Of a DNA stretch of 42,189 nt, positions 5,884-32,927 are shown one piece after another. Made by a program: the position numbers and the translations under genes. Every line of letters begins with the position of its first letter. The stretch's first letter is position 1. The notes beneath the pieces were generated by a model. That model saw nothing but the letters and a program-made list of their open reading frames with translations, ran no database searches and was not told where the DNA came from. Where the stretch lies: positions 1 to 42,189 of the forward strand of contig JAITER010000003.1 of assembly GCA_031281945.1 (NCBI GenBank), read 5' to 3'. This DNA is from Spirochaetaceae bacterium (GTDB taxonomy: Bacteria; Spirochaetota; Spirochaetia; Treponematales; Breznakiellaceae).

Positions 5884-6414
5884 AAAAACTATAAAATATA
5901 ATGAATACTAAAATTATAGGTATATAAAAAATTCTTAATACATAAATGTTTAATAAACTAAAGAAGATCTTTAAAAATAGATAAATAGAATTCTTTACTT
6001 AGATAATAATCTATAGTTAGCGACTCTTTAGATATACGATTGCTAATTAAATATCGATTAACGTAAACCTCTTTAGTATAAATATTGAAATTTATATGCC
6101 GCCAAATTTTACCTATTATGCGATATATTCTTCTTTTAAAATTCTCATACGGGTGCGCCATACAGAAAGAATATTTTTCGGATAAACTTTTATATGCGCC
6201 TAACCCGTCAGATATTGGACTTGTTCGCTCGCCCCGGTTGGTTGTCGCCCAAGTCTTGCAAAATGCTACGCATTTTGCGTTTTTTAAGCGGAAGTTGGCT
6301 GAATCCAAGCTTAGGCTTGATTCAGCTTGCGAAAACTGAAGTTTCCGAACAACTCTATTGAAAAAGTCCAATTTAGTTCTTTAATTGTTAAAGCTAGATT
6401 ATTCACATCTTTAT
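5884..6414. other. AT-rich non-coding DNA with a cluster of stem-loops
   Basis: Most of this stretch is AT-rich and has no convincing gene. At 6258-6278 GCAAAATGC and GCATTTTGC form a perfect 9-bp stem around TAC. At about 6298-6326 GCTGAATCCAAGC pairs imperfectly with GCTTGATTCAGC. At 6327-6355 lies a copy of a small palindrome also found near 9.4 and 13.5 kb. A 137-residue frame crosses this area but its content is just the translation of these stem-loops. Confidence 0.5.
6327..6355 (+). repeat. Short dispersed stem-loop, copy 1
   Basis: GCTTGCGAAAACTGAAG continuing as TTTCCGAACAAC. The core AAAC-TGAA-GTTT is a small hairpin. A closely matching framework occurs on the minus strand at 13450-13478, where the loop is inverted (TTCA for TGAA), and a looser relative occurs at 9417-9446. 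Confidence 0.5.
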
Positions 6415-18010: not shown

Positions 18011-18066
18011 CTCTAGCGGCGCCGCTTCCGGCCAACATAGGCGCCGGCTAGCGCCCCGGTTACCGC

Positions 18067-18241
18067 TGGGGGCTCCGCCCCCAAGCCCCCCGCTGGGAGG
18101 CCGAGGCCTCCCAGACCCACCAAAAGTTTGCGGCGCCGCTTTGTTTCAAGCGGGCTTTTCATTGCCGGGCGCGTTTTTCGCGGCGCTACGCCCCGCAAAA
18201 AACGCCGCGCCCGCTTTCCAGCGGCGCCCGGCGGCTTCCGC
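18067..18241 (-). repeat. Family A repeat: extended cap module, left copy
   Basis: TGGGGGCTCCGCCCCCA, then GCTGGGAGGCCGAGG with CCTCCCAGACCCACC, then AAAGTTTGCGGC and a tail CGCTTTGTTTCAAGCGGGC to about 18241. Most of this returns in the same orientation at 18502-18668, so the two form direct repeats of about 150 bp. The cap also appears at 30.46, 30.68, 32.01 and 40.87 kb. Confidence 0.85.
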
Positions 18242-18268
18242 CGCCGGTTTTTCGCCTTGGTTGCCGCT

Positions 18269-18505
18269 TGGGGGCTCCGCCCCCAGCCCCCGCTGTGCGC
18301 GAGTGCGCGCGAAACATTGAGCGCGTCCCGCCATTATCAGGCGGCCCAGCGTGGGGCGCGATAACGGCCCGCGCCGTAGAGAAAGCGGCCGGCCCCGCTG
18401 GGCGCGAGTGCGCGCGAAACATTGAGCGCGTCCCGCCATTATCAGGCGGCCCAGCGTGGGGCCCGATAATGGCCCCCGCCGTAGAGAAAGCGACCGGCCC
18501 CGCTG
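18269..18505 (-). repeat. Family A tandem core: two 105-bp units, inverted relative to the 31-kb array
   Basis: After a short GGGGGCTCCGCCCCC module, a unit beginning GCGCGAGTGCGCGCGAAAC is repeated at about 18296 and 18401 (period 105). Its reverse complement is the unit of the 31-kb array (CGCGCTCAAAG there, CATTGAGCGCG here). The two units differ at only a few positions. Long frames through this DNA come from the lack of stop codons in the GC-rich units and are not considered coding. Confidence 0.82.
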
Positions 18506-18668
18506 GGAGGCCGCAGCCTCCCAGACCCACCGAAAGTTTGCGGCGGCGCTTTGTTTCAAGCGGGCTTTTTCATTGCCGGGCGCGTTTTTCGCGGCGCTAC
18601 GCCCCGCAAAAAACCGCCGCTCCCGCTCCAATTCCGCGTCCGCTTTCCAGCGGCGCCCGGCGGCGGGC
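18502..18668 (-). repeat. Family A repeat: extended cap module, right copy
   Basis: Direct repeat of the module at about 18090-18241, including CTGGGAGGCC, CCTCCCAGACCCACC, AAAGTTTGCGGC and the TTTGTTTCAAGCGGGC tail. It ends some 40 nt before the promoter of the broken peptidase gene. Confidence 0.82.
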
Positions 18669-29485: not shown

Positions 29486-30226
29486 GTGGATAAAAAATAC
29501 GCTGTATTTATTGACGGCGATAACATATCTTCTGAATATTTAGATATAGTAATGGCGGAAATAGCCAAAGACGGCGAAATACTGATTAAAAGGATATACG
29601 GCGATTGGACGACCACCAATATGAATTCCTGGAAAGATAAGGTTTTTAACACGCCGGTAAGAATATTCCAGCAATTCCGTTTCGGGCCAAACGCGACGGA
29701 CAACAGCATAATAATGGACGCTATAGAATTAACGAATCAAAATAAAGACATCAACGCTTTTTGCATTGTATCTATAGACGCCGACTATTACAGTCTGGCG
29801 TTGAGACTTCGCGAAAACGGAAAATACGTCTTTGGAATAGGCAAAGAAAACTCAAAAGTTATTTGGCAGAATTCATGCAACAAATTTGTAAAAATAGAGA
29901 ATATAGCCAAAGAAAAAGAGCTTGAAGGGCCGAAATTAGAGGAGCATAACAAGCTTCCCGTTTACAGGCAAAGCGGAAGTTTGGGTGAAATTATAGAATA
30001 CGGCCTGGAAAATTCCAGAATTAACGACGACGGGTGGATAAGTTTTTCTGATTTTGGCGCTACGGTTAGATCCAAGTATCCAAGTTTTGATACGCGAACA
30101 TATAATTACAAAAACTTGTTGCAATTGATTAAATCGCTCGCCACCACAATAGAAATTAAATCTGATAAAAGCTTCCCTCCGAATTACTGGTTGCGCCGGC
30201 TTTCCGGCCCGCCTGACGAGGCGTAA
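29486..30226 (+). CDS. NYN-domain ribonuclease-like protein with C-terminal LOTUS (OST-HTH) domain
   Basis: A 246-residue soluble protein. The NYN/PIN-like domain (about 4-135) opens YAVFIDGDNIS with D10 and D12, has MDAIEL with D78, and IVSIDADYYSLALRLRENG with D98 and D100; these acidic residues match the metal site of NYN nucleases. The LOTUS/OST-HTH-like domain (about 163-240) starts SLGEIIEYGL, includes GWISFSDFGATVR and ends with a LLQLIKSL helix. This combination suggests an RNA-binding ribonuclease. It starts with GTG at 29486; GGAGG lies 6 nt upstream. It is followed after 57 nt by a strong promoter that reads into the G-rich repeat array. The family is well known; the biological role in bacteria is largely open. 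Confidence 0.87.
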   Translation: MDKKYAVFIDGDNISSEYLDIVMAEIAKDGEILIKRIYGDWTTTNMNSWKDKVFNTPVRIFQQFRFGPNATDNSIIMDAIELTNQNKDINAFCIVSIDADYYSLALRLRENGKYVFGIGKENSKVIWQNSCNKFVKIENIAKEKELEGPKLEEHNKLPVYRQSGSLGEIIEYGLENSRINDDGWISFSDFGATVRSKYPSFDTRTYNYKNLLQLIKSLATTIEIKSDKSFPPNYWLRRLSGPPDEA

Positions 30227-30394: not shown

Positions 30395-30449
30395 TTGGGC
30401 GCGGCATAGTGGTCGTCTGTTTAAGGCGCGCGGAATAAGCAAAACGCCC

Positions 30450-30515
30450 GCTAAAATTTTTGGTGGGTCTGGGAGGCCTGGGCCTCCCAGCGGGGGGGGG
30501 GGGCGGAGCCCCCAG
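30450..30515 (+). repeat. Family A cap module, outer left of the 31-kb locus
   Basis: AAAATTTTTGGTGGGTCTGG, then GGAGGCCTGGGCCTCCCAG, then a run of twelve or so G and CGGAGCCCCCAG. It matches the inner cap at 30682-30745 except for a few bases and the longer G-run. Confidence 0.8.
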
Positions 30516-30555
30516 TTGCAAGCAAGGCGCGAGCCGTTATCGGCCCGTGCGCTTA

Positions 30556-30645
30556 AAGCGCAAGCGATTGGGGATTTGGCCGCTTTAGCGGGCAAATTAT
30601 GCGGAAAGCGCGGTTTTCGCCGCAATGCGGCGAAAATGTGCGCCC
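30556..30645 (-). repeat. Family B repeat (variable-palindrome element), copy 3
   Basis: On the minus strand: GGGCGCACATTTT, stem-loop 1 (arms TTTTCGCCGC and GCGGCGAAAA, 30612-30637), CCGCGCTTTCCGCAT, stem-loop 2 (AATTTGCCCGC against GCGGCCAAATC, one mismatch), then CCCCAATCGCTTGCGCTT. Framework and order agree with copies 1 and 2. It lies between the two left caps of the family A locus. Confidence 0.72.
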
Positions 30646-30681
30646 GGCAATGAAGAACGCCGTTTGAAACAAAGCGGCGCC

Positions 30682-30745
30682 GCAAACTTTCGGTGGGTCT
30701 GGGAGGCCGAGGCCTCCCAGCGGGGGGTTGGGGGCGGAGCCCCCA
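30682..30745 (+). repeat. Family A cap module, inner left terminal repeat of the array
   Basis: GCAAACTTTCGGTGGGTCTG, GGAGGCCGAGGCCTCCCAG, CGGGGGGTTGGGGGCGGAGC and CCCCA. Its reverse complement, with few changes, is at 32010-32073 on the other side of the tandem array, so the array is bounded by inverted repeats of about 64 bp. The extended flank (GGCAATGAAGAACGCC and GTTTGAAACAAAGCGGCGCC) also matches the 18-kb locus. Confidence 0.85.
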
Positions 30746-30769
30746 ACCGCAACCAAAACGCGAGCCGCT

Positions 30770-32009
30770 ATCGGCCCCCGCGCCGCCTGGGTTGGCGGAA
30801 CGCGCTCAAAGTATCGCGCGTACTCGCGCCCAGTGTGGCCGTCCGCTTTCTCTATGGCGGGGGCCTTTATCGGGCCCCACGCTGTGCCGCCTGATACGGC
30901 GGGACGCGCTCAAAGTTTCGCGCACACTCGCTCCCCAGCATGGCCTGTCGCTTTCTCTACGGCGTGGGCTTTTATCTGGCCCCCCGCTGTGCCGCCTGAT
31001 ACGGCGGGACGCGCTCAAAGTTTCGCGCACACTCGCTCCCCAGCGTGGCCTGTCGCTTTCTCTACGGCGTGGGCTTTTATCTGGCCCCCCGCTGAGCCGC
31101 CTGGGTTGGCGGGCCGCGCTCAAAGTATCGCGCGTACTCGCGCCCAGTGTGGCCGTCCGCTTTCTCTATGGCGTGGGCCTTTATCTGGCCCCCCGCTGAG
31201 CCGCCTGGGTTGGCGGGCCGCGCTCAAAGTATCGTGCGCACTCGCGCCCAGCGTGGCCTGTCGCCTTCTCTACGGCGTGGGCTTTTATCTGGCCCCCCGC
31301 TGAGCCGCCTGGGTTGGCGGGCCGCGCTCAAAGTATCGTGCGCACTCGCGCCCAGCGTGGCCGTCCGCATTCTCTGCGGCTGTGGCCGATATCGGGCCCC
31401 CCGCTCTACCGCCTGGGTTGGCGTGCCGCGCTCAAAGTTTCGCGCGCACTCGCGCCCAGCGTGGCCTTTCGCTTTTTCTACGGCTGGGGCCGTTATCTGG
31501 CCCCACGCTGTGCCGCCTGATATGGCTGGCCGCACTCAATGTTTCGCGCGCACTCGCTCCCAGCGGGGGGCCGTCCGCTTTCTCTACGGCGGGGGCTTTT
31601 ATCTGGCCCCCCGCTGAGCCGCCTGGGTTGGCGGCTCAGCGCTCAAAGTATCGCGCGCACTCGCGCCCAGCGTGGCCTGTCGCCTTCTCTGCGGCTGGGG
31701 CCGTTATCTGGCCCCACGCTGTGCCGCCTGATATGGCTGGCCGCACTCAATGTTTCGCGCGCACTCGCTCCCAGCGGGGGGCCGTCCGCTTTTTCTACGG
31801 CGGGGGCTTTTATCGGGCCCCACGCTGGGCCGCCTGGGTTGGATGGCCGCGCTCAAAGTATCGCGCGCACTCGCGCCCAGCGTGGCCGTCCGCTTTCTCT
31901 ACGGCGGGGGCTTTTATCTGGCCCCCCGCTGAGCCGCCTGGGTTGGCGGGCCGCGCTCAAAGTATCGTGCGCACTTGCGCCCAGCGGGGCCGGTCGCCTT
32001 CTCTACGGC
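30770..32009 (+). repeat. Family A tandem array: twelve units of about 104 bp
   Basis: The marker CGCGCTCAAAG (or CGCACTCAATG) recurs at 30802, 30905, 31010, 31115, 31219, 31323, 31427, 31531, 31638, 31742, 31848 and 31952, giving periods of 103-107. A unit runs: CCGCC-TGGGTT-GGCGG small stem, CGCGCTCAAAGTATCGCGCG, ACTCGCGCCCAGCGTGGCC, GTCCGCTTTCTCTACGGC, GGGGGCTTTTATCTGGCCCC, CCGCTGA. Two unit types alternate near 31531-31848, a higher-order repeat of about 211 bp. Because 104 is not a multiple of three, the same DNA is read in all three frames, so the long open frames across it are not protein genes. Confidence 0.93.
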
Positions 32010-32073
32010 TGGGGGCTCCGCCCCCACTCCCCCGCTGGGAGGCCAAGGCCTCCCAGACCCACCGAAAATTTGC
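32010..32073 (-). repeat. Family A cap module, right terminal repeat of the array
   Basis: TGGGGGCTCCGCCCCCACTC, CCCCGCTGGGAGGCCAAGG, CCTCCCAGACCCACCG, AAAATTTGC. It is the inverted partner of the cap at 30682-30745. Confidence 0.85.
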
Positions 32074-32140
32074 GGCGCCGCCCCAGCCCACCGCCGGCCT
32101 GTTTTTAGCCCTATTCCGGCCCGCGCGGGGCCGCTTGCGG

Positions 32141-32190
32141 CGCCGCGCCTAAAGCGCGGTTTTCGCCGCTTTAGCGGCGAAAATGCGCCC
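32141..32190 (-). repeat. Family B-like partial copy
   Basis: On the minus strand GGGCGCATTTT, stem-loop (CGCCGC-TAAA-GCGGCG), AAAACC, then a second stem GCGC-type (CCGCGC-CTAAA-GCGCGG on plus). The start agrees with the family B framework but the tail (CTATCC-TTGCGCTT) is missing. Confidence 0.5.
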
Positions 32191-32267
32191 ATATCTGAAG
32201 AATAAAACATGGACGGCGGAAGAAACGGGAACGGGCGCGATTAGGGGGAGACTTACATCTTTTGCTT

Positions 32268-32276: not shown

Positions 32277-32282
32277 TTGCGG

Positions 32283-32927
32283 ATGATTATACAAGGGGTT
32301 CTTTTTGATTTAGACGGTCTTTTGGTGGACACCGAGAAACCGTTTTTGAATTGCTGGGTGGAAGTTTGCAACGCTTGCGGATACACGGTCTCCATGGCGG
32401 AAGCGCTAAAAATGGTGGGCATGGGTTTAAGGGAAGAAGAAACGCTTTTAAAAGATATGTATGGGGATAAATTCCCTTTTGAAGAACTGCGTGATAAAAC
32501 TTTGCGTTTAACTGAAGAAATGCACAATAAAAACGGAGTCCTTCTTATGCCGGGCGCTAAAGAACTGCTTTCCCATGTTAAAAATAAAGGCCTTCCGTCG
32601 GCCGTCGCCACCGGCACTTTTTATGAAAGGGCTGTTTGGAAATTGCGATCCGCCGGAATTTTGAACGTTTTTGACGCGATTTGCACGGGAAGCGACGTCG
32701 AAAAAGGCAAGCCGGCGCCTGATATATTCATTTTGGCCGCGGAAAAAATAGGAATAGCGCCGGAAAATTGCGTGGGATTTGAAGATTCACCTGTAGGCCT
32801 GCTTTCCCTAAACGCCGCGGGCGTAAAAAGCGTTTTTGTAAAAGATCAAATAGAGCCGCCGCCCTCCGTTTTAAAAACTGTTTGGAAGCGGTTTAACCGG
32901 CTGGATGAGGCTATAACCCTGTTCTAA
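32283..32927 (+). CDS. HAD-superfamily phosphatase / phosphomutase-like protein
   Basis: A 214-residue cytoplasmic hydrolase of the beta-phosphoglucomutase-like subgroup. The nucleophile motif is FDLDGLLVDTE with D9 and acid-base D11. A helical cap occupies about residues 16-85. Motif II is VATGTFYERA (Thr), motif III is KGKPAPDIF with its Lys, and motif IV is VGFEDSPVGLLSLNAAGV. I start it at ATG 32283; a TTG six bases earlier overlaps the -10. It may act on a sugar phosphate, but HAD substrates cannot be predicted from sequence alone. Monocistronic, flanked by the repeat locus. Confidence 0.88.
   Translation: MIIQGVLFDLDGLLVDTEKPFLNCWVEVCNACGYTVSMAEALKMVGMGLREEETLLKDMYGDKFPFEELRDKTLRLTEEMHNKNGVLLMPGAKELLSHVKNKGLPSAVATGTFYERAVWKLRSAGILNVFDAICTGSDVEKGKPAPDIFILAAEKIGIAPENCVGFEDSPVGLLSLNAAGVKSVFVKDQIEPPPSVLKTVWKRFNRLDEAITLF

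Follow-up and report, generated by a model that had tools for sequence, protein, structure and literature searches.

The closest described counterpart of the repeat reported here is the BOX element of the pneumococcus, which is built from a boxA and a boxC module with a variable number of tandem boxB modules between them (PMC3049150). BOX elements are dispersed, hairpin-forming and considered parasitic, and further end modules have been described in S. suis (PMC3049150). They also occur in clusters with other repeats or inserted within them, and their large copies possess open frames on both strands (PMC3049150). A tandem array in the genome of a Spirochaetaceae bacterium had been proposed from its sequence as a candidate new repeat element that matched no type that could be named. 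The latter statement proved too strong, since the BOX elements of Streptococcus share this architecture (PMC3049150). The candidacy itself stands insofar as the array is a non-coding repeat with a unit number that varies from locus to locus, and the libraries that we searched contain no described family matching it.

The window (the whole stretch of DNA analysed, 42,189 nucleotides of contig JAITER010000003.1) contains a repeat mosaic at 30423-32210, delimited by its match depth against other loci of the same genome and by gene context. This mosaic is intergenic, with an NYN/OST-HTH gene (29486-30226, plus strand) on one side and a HAD hydrolase gene (32277-32927, plus strand) on the other. 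Tandem Repeats Finder, run on the window, returned an array at 30782-32017 (plus strand) with a period of 104, 11.8 copies, 85% matches and a score of 1650, and anchoring on a conserved motif resolved the 12 GC-rich units of the original prediction at a spacing of 103-108 bp (11 full, the last truncated). GC content is approximately 0.69 within the array versus 0.39-0.48 in its flanks. Long open frames span the array on both strands; the array ORFs have no match in Pfam and the unit lengths do not keep to multiples of three, in agreement with the earlier view that this is not a protein repeat. The units do differ in type. However, the 211-bp higher-order period ascribed to them is not array-wide, and derives from one dimer duplication in which units 7-8 and units 9-10 (31409-31828, plus strand) correspond with unit identities of 91% and 95%.

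The array stands between two inverted arms, 30674-30749 on the plus strand and 32006-32081 on the minus strand, which are 92% complementary and each carry CTGGGAGGCC-NN-GGCCTCCCAG. These are the inverted repeats with internal palindromes that had been described, although at 76 nt they slightly exceed the approximately 64 bp first given. Comparison with other loci showed that such a cap is a dispersed element with two hairpins, which we term A (GGTGGGTCTGGGAGGCC-NN-GGCCTCCCAGCGGGG) and C (GGGGGCGGAGCCCCC). The left cap, which matches about 50 other copies, belongs to the array-bearing element and places its A hairpin at 30699-30720 and its C hairpin at 30726-30748. The module parse then assigns a tail module, t (CAACCAAAACGCGAGCCG...), to 30750-30781 (plus strand), which runs into the first unit. 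The right cap, delimited as the opposite arm and by the module parse, consists of A and C hairpins in inverted orientation, and is a rearranged end and not a general rule. Upstream of all this lies a separate and complete element without units (n = 0) at 30454-30552 (plus strand), consisting of hairpin A, hairpin C and tail, with 85% identity to the left cap; the order at this locus is thus an n = 0 element, the 12-unit element and the inverted A/C cap. Repeat matches and the module parse also revealed a second site in the window at approximately 18045-18595 (minus strand), with one n = 0 element and one that has 2 units. Both this 2-unit array and the complete n = 0 element had gone unremarked.

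The genome to which the window belongs is a draft of 2.49 Mb in 99 contigs (95% complete), and the window region has at least 180 matches on about 40 of its contigs. As 40 out of 86 candidate matches were scored in the own-genome search, all element counts are lower bounds; 40 stretches around matches were fetched, every cap in them was aligned, and our census covers these fetched stretches. Exact A cores in the genome numbered 54 (34 forward, 20 reverse), against 0 for a reversed-pattern control. We found that the 104-bp unit is a middle module, placed after A and before the final C, and that each unit ends in CCCAGCGGGG, as A does, this shared junction often reading CTCCCAGCGGGG. The modules obey the grammar A-(hijk)n-C-t or A-C-t-(ijk)(hijk)n-C-t, and at the parsed loci units start after the A hairpin and finish at the C hairpin wherever the contig allows. 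The general form is therefore directional, A-(unit)n-C, and enclosure by inverted caps, which had been put forward as the plan of the element, is not borne out: of the 54 elements with an A hairpin in the fetched loci, 24 lack units altogether, while 19 have one, 5 have two, 1 has three, 1 has four, 3 have five and 1, the window locus alone, has twelve, some of the elements counted here being cut at contig ends or not cleanly closed. Long arrays will be under-counted, because the genome is a 99-contig draft, and the unit number of 12 is that of one assembly. With respect to other cap-bounded arrays, for which a search had been suggested, inverted closure is complete only at the window locus, where it reflects a local rearrangement of the right end; a comparable inverted join occurs on contig C65.

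The repeat blocks span approximately 200-1800 bp, apart from one bare core of 55 bp, and form mosaics with other repeats. Their GC content is mostly 53-73%, versus about 48% overall in the stretches read. The blocks examined are intergenic and their flanking gene pairs may be convergent, divergent or tandem, as judged by simple ORF calling that leaves a few overlaps with short ORFs uncertain. As with BOX elements, the blocks are dispersed, present in many copies and predominantly intergenic. No copy of this small, modular and non-coding repeat, which is scattered through its own genome, is longer than the array in the window. Among the neighbouring sequences, five loci (window 32080-32190, L012, L020, L023 and L032) share a flank module (GCCGCAAGCGGCCCCGCGCGGGCCGGAATAGGGCTAAAAACAGGCCGG) in front of A, both loci with an inverted join being among them. 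A second flank (CCGTTGTTTATCAGATACAGCGCCTTATCACCAGACGCCTG) lies immediately upstream of A in L033 (504), L037 (5266), L038 (137) and L041 (5046), so that repeats of different families adjoin one another at several loci. The window also harbours, at 6214-6359, a separate dispersed element of about 115-148 bp (ATTGGACTTGTTCG... ...CCGAACAACTCTAT; GC 45%) that is MITE-like with partly inverted ends, has matches in about a dozen of 41 fetched loci and has no match in Rfam.

Units resemble their neighbours more than they do units elsewhere, with a mean of 0.856 within a locus versus 0.795 between loci, a difference that none of 2000 label shuffles reached, and for 29 of 37 units the most similar unit is one from their own locus. 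Copies were therefore made in place, and in-place amplification of units is shown statistically by these comparisons. The same data bear on the concern that the 12-unit array arose during assembly, through collapse or chimeric joining of several loci. Many arrays do lie at contig ends, as expected for repeats that break assemblies, and a mis-join could account for the inverted right cap; against this, the units of the window locus are mutually distinct and form a locus-specific set, and internal arrays of 4-5 units were assembled at other loci. We regard an assembly artefact as highly unlikely.

Turning to the hairpins, the stems of A and C vary in their letters between species and yet their pairing is kept (a script count over distinct copies, uncorrected for relatedness). 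In the A stem, the first variable pair is A-T, G-C or G-T, and C-G, A-T, T-G and G-T occur deeper; the C stem shows C-G, A-T and T-A beside its G-run; paired stem variants between species include CTGGGAGGCC/GGCCTCCCAG, CTGGGGGGCC/GGCCCCCCAG and CTGGGAGGAC/GTCCTCCCAG. A candidate closing stem, TTGGT/ACCAA, around both hairpins was dropped, as its bases lack clear co-variation across copies. On the plus strand G-T mismatches outnumber A-C mismatches (14 versus 10 in A, 21 versus 7 in C, several of them being one inherited change), and this excess weakly suggests that the plus strand is the strand that folds.

Pairing maintained through letter changes is also what one would expect of a cis-regulatory element or structured RNA that is retained because it serves the host, such as a 3' UTR, attenuator or terminator, in which unit number would tune the expression of neighbouring genes. 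Few shuffles fold as well as the A+C stretch (z = -2.5), and BOX elements are transcribed and affect their neighbours (PMC3049150). However, the 104-bp unit exhibits no covariation beyond shuffles, and its folds are mostly ordinary for their composition (z of -0.8 to -1.5), bar one unit at z = -3.6. Rfam yielded no match above its gathering score, and no relevant family for the window, for the elements of relatives or, at a permissive threshold, for the locus; the flanking gene pairs come in all three orientations, and the unit is confined to one genome. Conservation for a host function consequently seems unlikely to us, and the repeat can be explained with no benefit to its host. The small unit stems noted at the outset are present in the consensus, but the proposed check by folding single units and testing for covariation did not support them as selected structures; the cap hairpins are so supported.

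The distribution of the element across relatives is patchy, with bursts. We found the core pattern GGTCTGGG-N(6-34)-CCCAGCGGGG in 14 of 200 family genomes, with none for a reversed-pattern control. Copy numbers are 54 in its own genome, 45 in G139, 23 in G124, 21 in G140, 10 in G133 and 1-3 in the rest. In an even phylum sample of 393 genomes the own genome was the single carrier of the core, so that none outside the family had it, and within the genus it was absent from the two other genomes, which are 61% and 70% complete. In GTDB the exact cap core occurs in one genome besides its own, Treponema sp. Pq454_bin73; this Treponema MAG is the only named-genome match and lends support to the initial attribution to Treponema. 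In the 200 family genomes, with the best few candidates per genome scored, the 104-bp unit matched two others only, over 26 and 33 bp, making it essentially confined to its own genome. Viral contigs, phages and plasmids gave no match to the element, and our literature search retrieved no paper on such repeats in termite treponemes.

In the relative G139 the core lies inside an element of 221-222 bp with the terminal inverted repeats (TIRs) GGGTGCAATTT... and ...GAAGTGCACCC. Of the 8 G139 copies with both ends, 3 are flanked by exact target-site duplications of 8-10 bp, versus 0 of 56 mismatched flank pairs. The G139 loci L171-L185 make up this 221-bp MITE family (TIR GGGTGCAATTT) bearing the A/C core. 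For the elements of the own genome we found no target-site duplication or TIR; they sit in larger mosaics with other repeats, which precluded the definition of any TIRs. The same-genus genomes provided no usable empty-site pair, because their DNA identity is only about 75%, their gene order is not conserved and the flanking genes tested are not adjacent in them. Nor did the few-copy species point to an autonomous partner among recurrent neighbour genes, as no protein was shared other than at one orthologous locus in two sister genomes and in two weak matches.

A different route of spread would be that of a REP/BIME-type repeat moved by a RAYT (Y1) transposase, in which A would be the REP-like hairpin, with GTGG as its 5' foot, and the arrays would be BIME clusters. 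GGTGGG does precede A, A forms a strong hairpin, and the elements are dispersed, intergenic and clustered. On the other hand, no intact Y1/RAYT transposase was found in the own genome, where the sole Y1_Tnp match (L049; G000:C57:18078-18413) is interrupted by three stop codons. In addition, the core is not a palindrome of 20-40 bp but consists of two or more hairpins together with a long module of 104 bp, and its carrier in G139, a TIR element flanked by target-site duplications, is unlike what Y1 transposition produces. Taken together we consider mobilisation by a RAYT very unlikely. A further possibility concerns the sites at which other DNA joins the core. In the own genome the 104-bp unit lies between A and C, different DNA is found in or at the C hairpin in G139 and G182, and an additional A-like hairpin is found at the core in G140. 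Further inserts (other repeats) are nested at the C hairpin in several G139 copies, and one such copy carries two in succession. One might envisage that the stretch between and around the hairpins is a family-wide preferred landing site for unrelated inserts, the core acting as a platform of hairpins on which DNA is captured and multiplied, perhaps via an enzyme that recognises single strands, though to us this appears improbable.

We consider it likely that the locus is instead a composite small interspersed repeat, A-(B)n-C, that works like a streptococcal BOX element. In this model A and C are the conserved hairpins and B is the 104-bp module between them, joined via the shared CCCAGCGGGG. 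The A/C core would have dispersed across the genome as a mobile element that is non-autonomous, moved in trans most likely by a transposase that is perhaps now lost. The B modules then multiplied in place, probably by slippage or by unequal recombination, acting between adjacent units and at the short junction that they share, CCCAGCGGGG being a plausible substrate for unit amplification. The 12-unit array is the extreme of the n distribution, with its inverted right cap as a local rearrangement. The repeat is thus most likely a non-autonomous genomic parasite with a middle unit that multiplies in place. Its patchy distribution in the family, from 1 to 54 copies per genome with stems diverged yet paired, offers a natural series in which to study repeat start, burst and internal amplification. 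In practice, such arrays fragment the assemblies of these genomes, and they could be used as markers for variable-number typing.

How does this repeat compare with other known systems? Termite-gut treponemes have been reported to lack integrons (PMC3607928). Treponema integron attC arrays are likewise hairpin-forming repeats in a treponeme, but here there are no genes or cassettes between the repeats and the blocks are dispersed at about 40 sites, making integron arrays a poor fit. With REP/BIME and RAYT systems it shares clustered intergenic hairpins and a REP-like GTGG foot, and differs in its larger modules, in having no intact Y1 transposase in its own genome and in the TIR-type carrier of a relative. 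Bacterial MITEs (e.g. Correia elements, RUP and Nezha) are likewise short, non-coding, hairpin-rich, present in many copies and probably moved in trans, and TIRs and target-site duplications also accompany the related core in G139; the element described here, however, possesses an internal variable tandem module and is GC-rich and not AT-rich. The likeness is greatest to the BOX elements of Streptococcus pneumoniae and S. suis, with which it has in common fixed 5' and 3' modules, tandem middle modules of variable number (n of 0-12 here), dispersal, hairpin formation, a position beside other repeats and open frames on both strands. It departs from them in its GC-rich composition, in its Treponema family setting, in a middle unit of about 104 bp where boxB has about 45 bp, and in that no IS with matching ends was identified for it. 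We therefore describe the element as one that appears to work like BOX and do not file it as BOX, the likeness being one of architecture without a claim of homology. BOX-type composite repeats are known from Streptococcus, and the occurrence of the same plan in the different setting of a spirochaete family suggests that parasites of the form head-(unit)n-tail arise more than once in bacteria.
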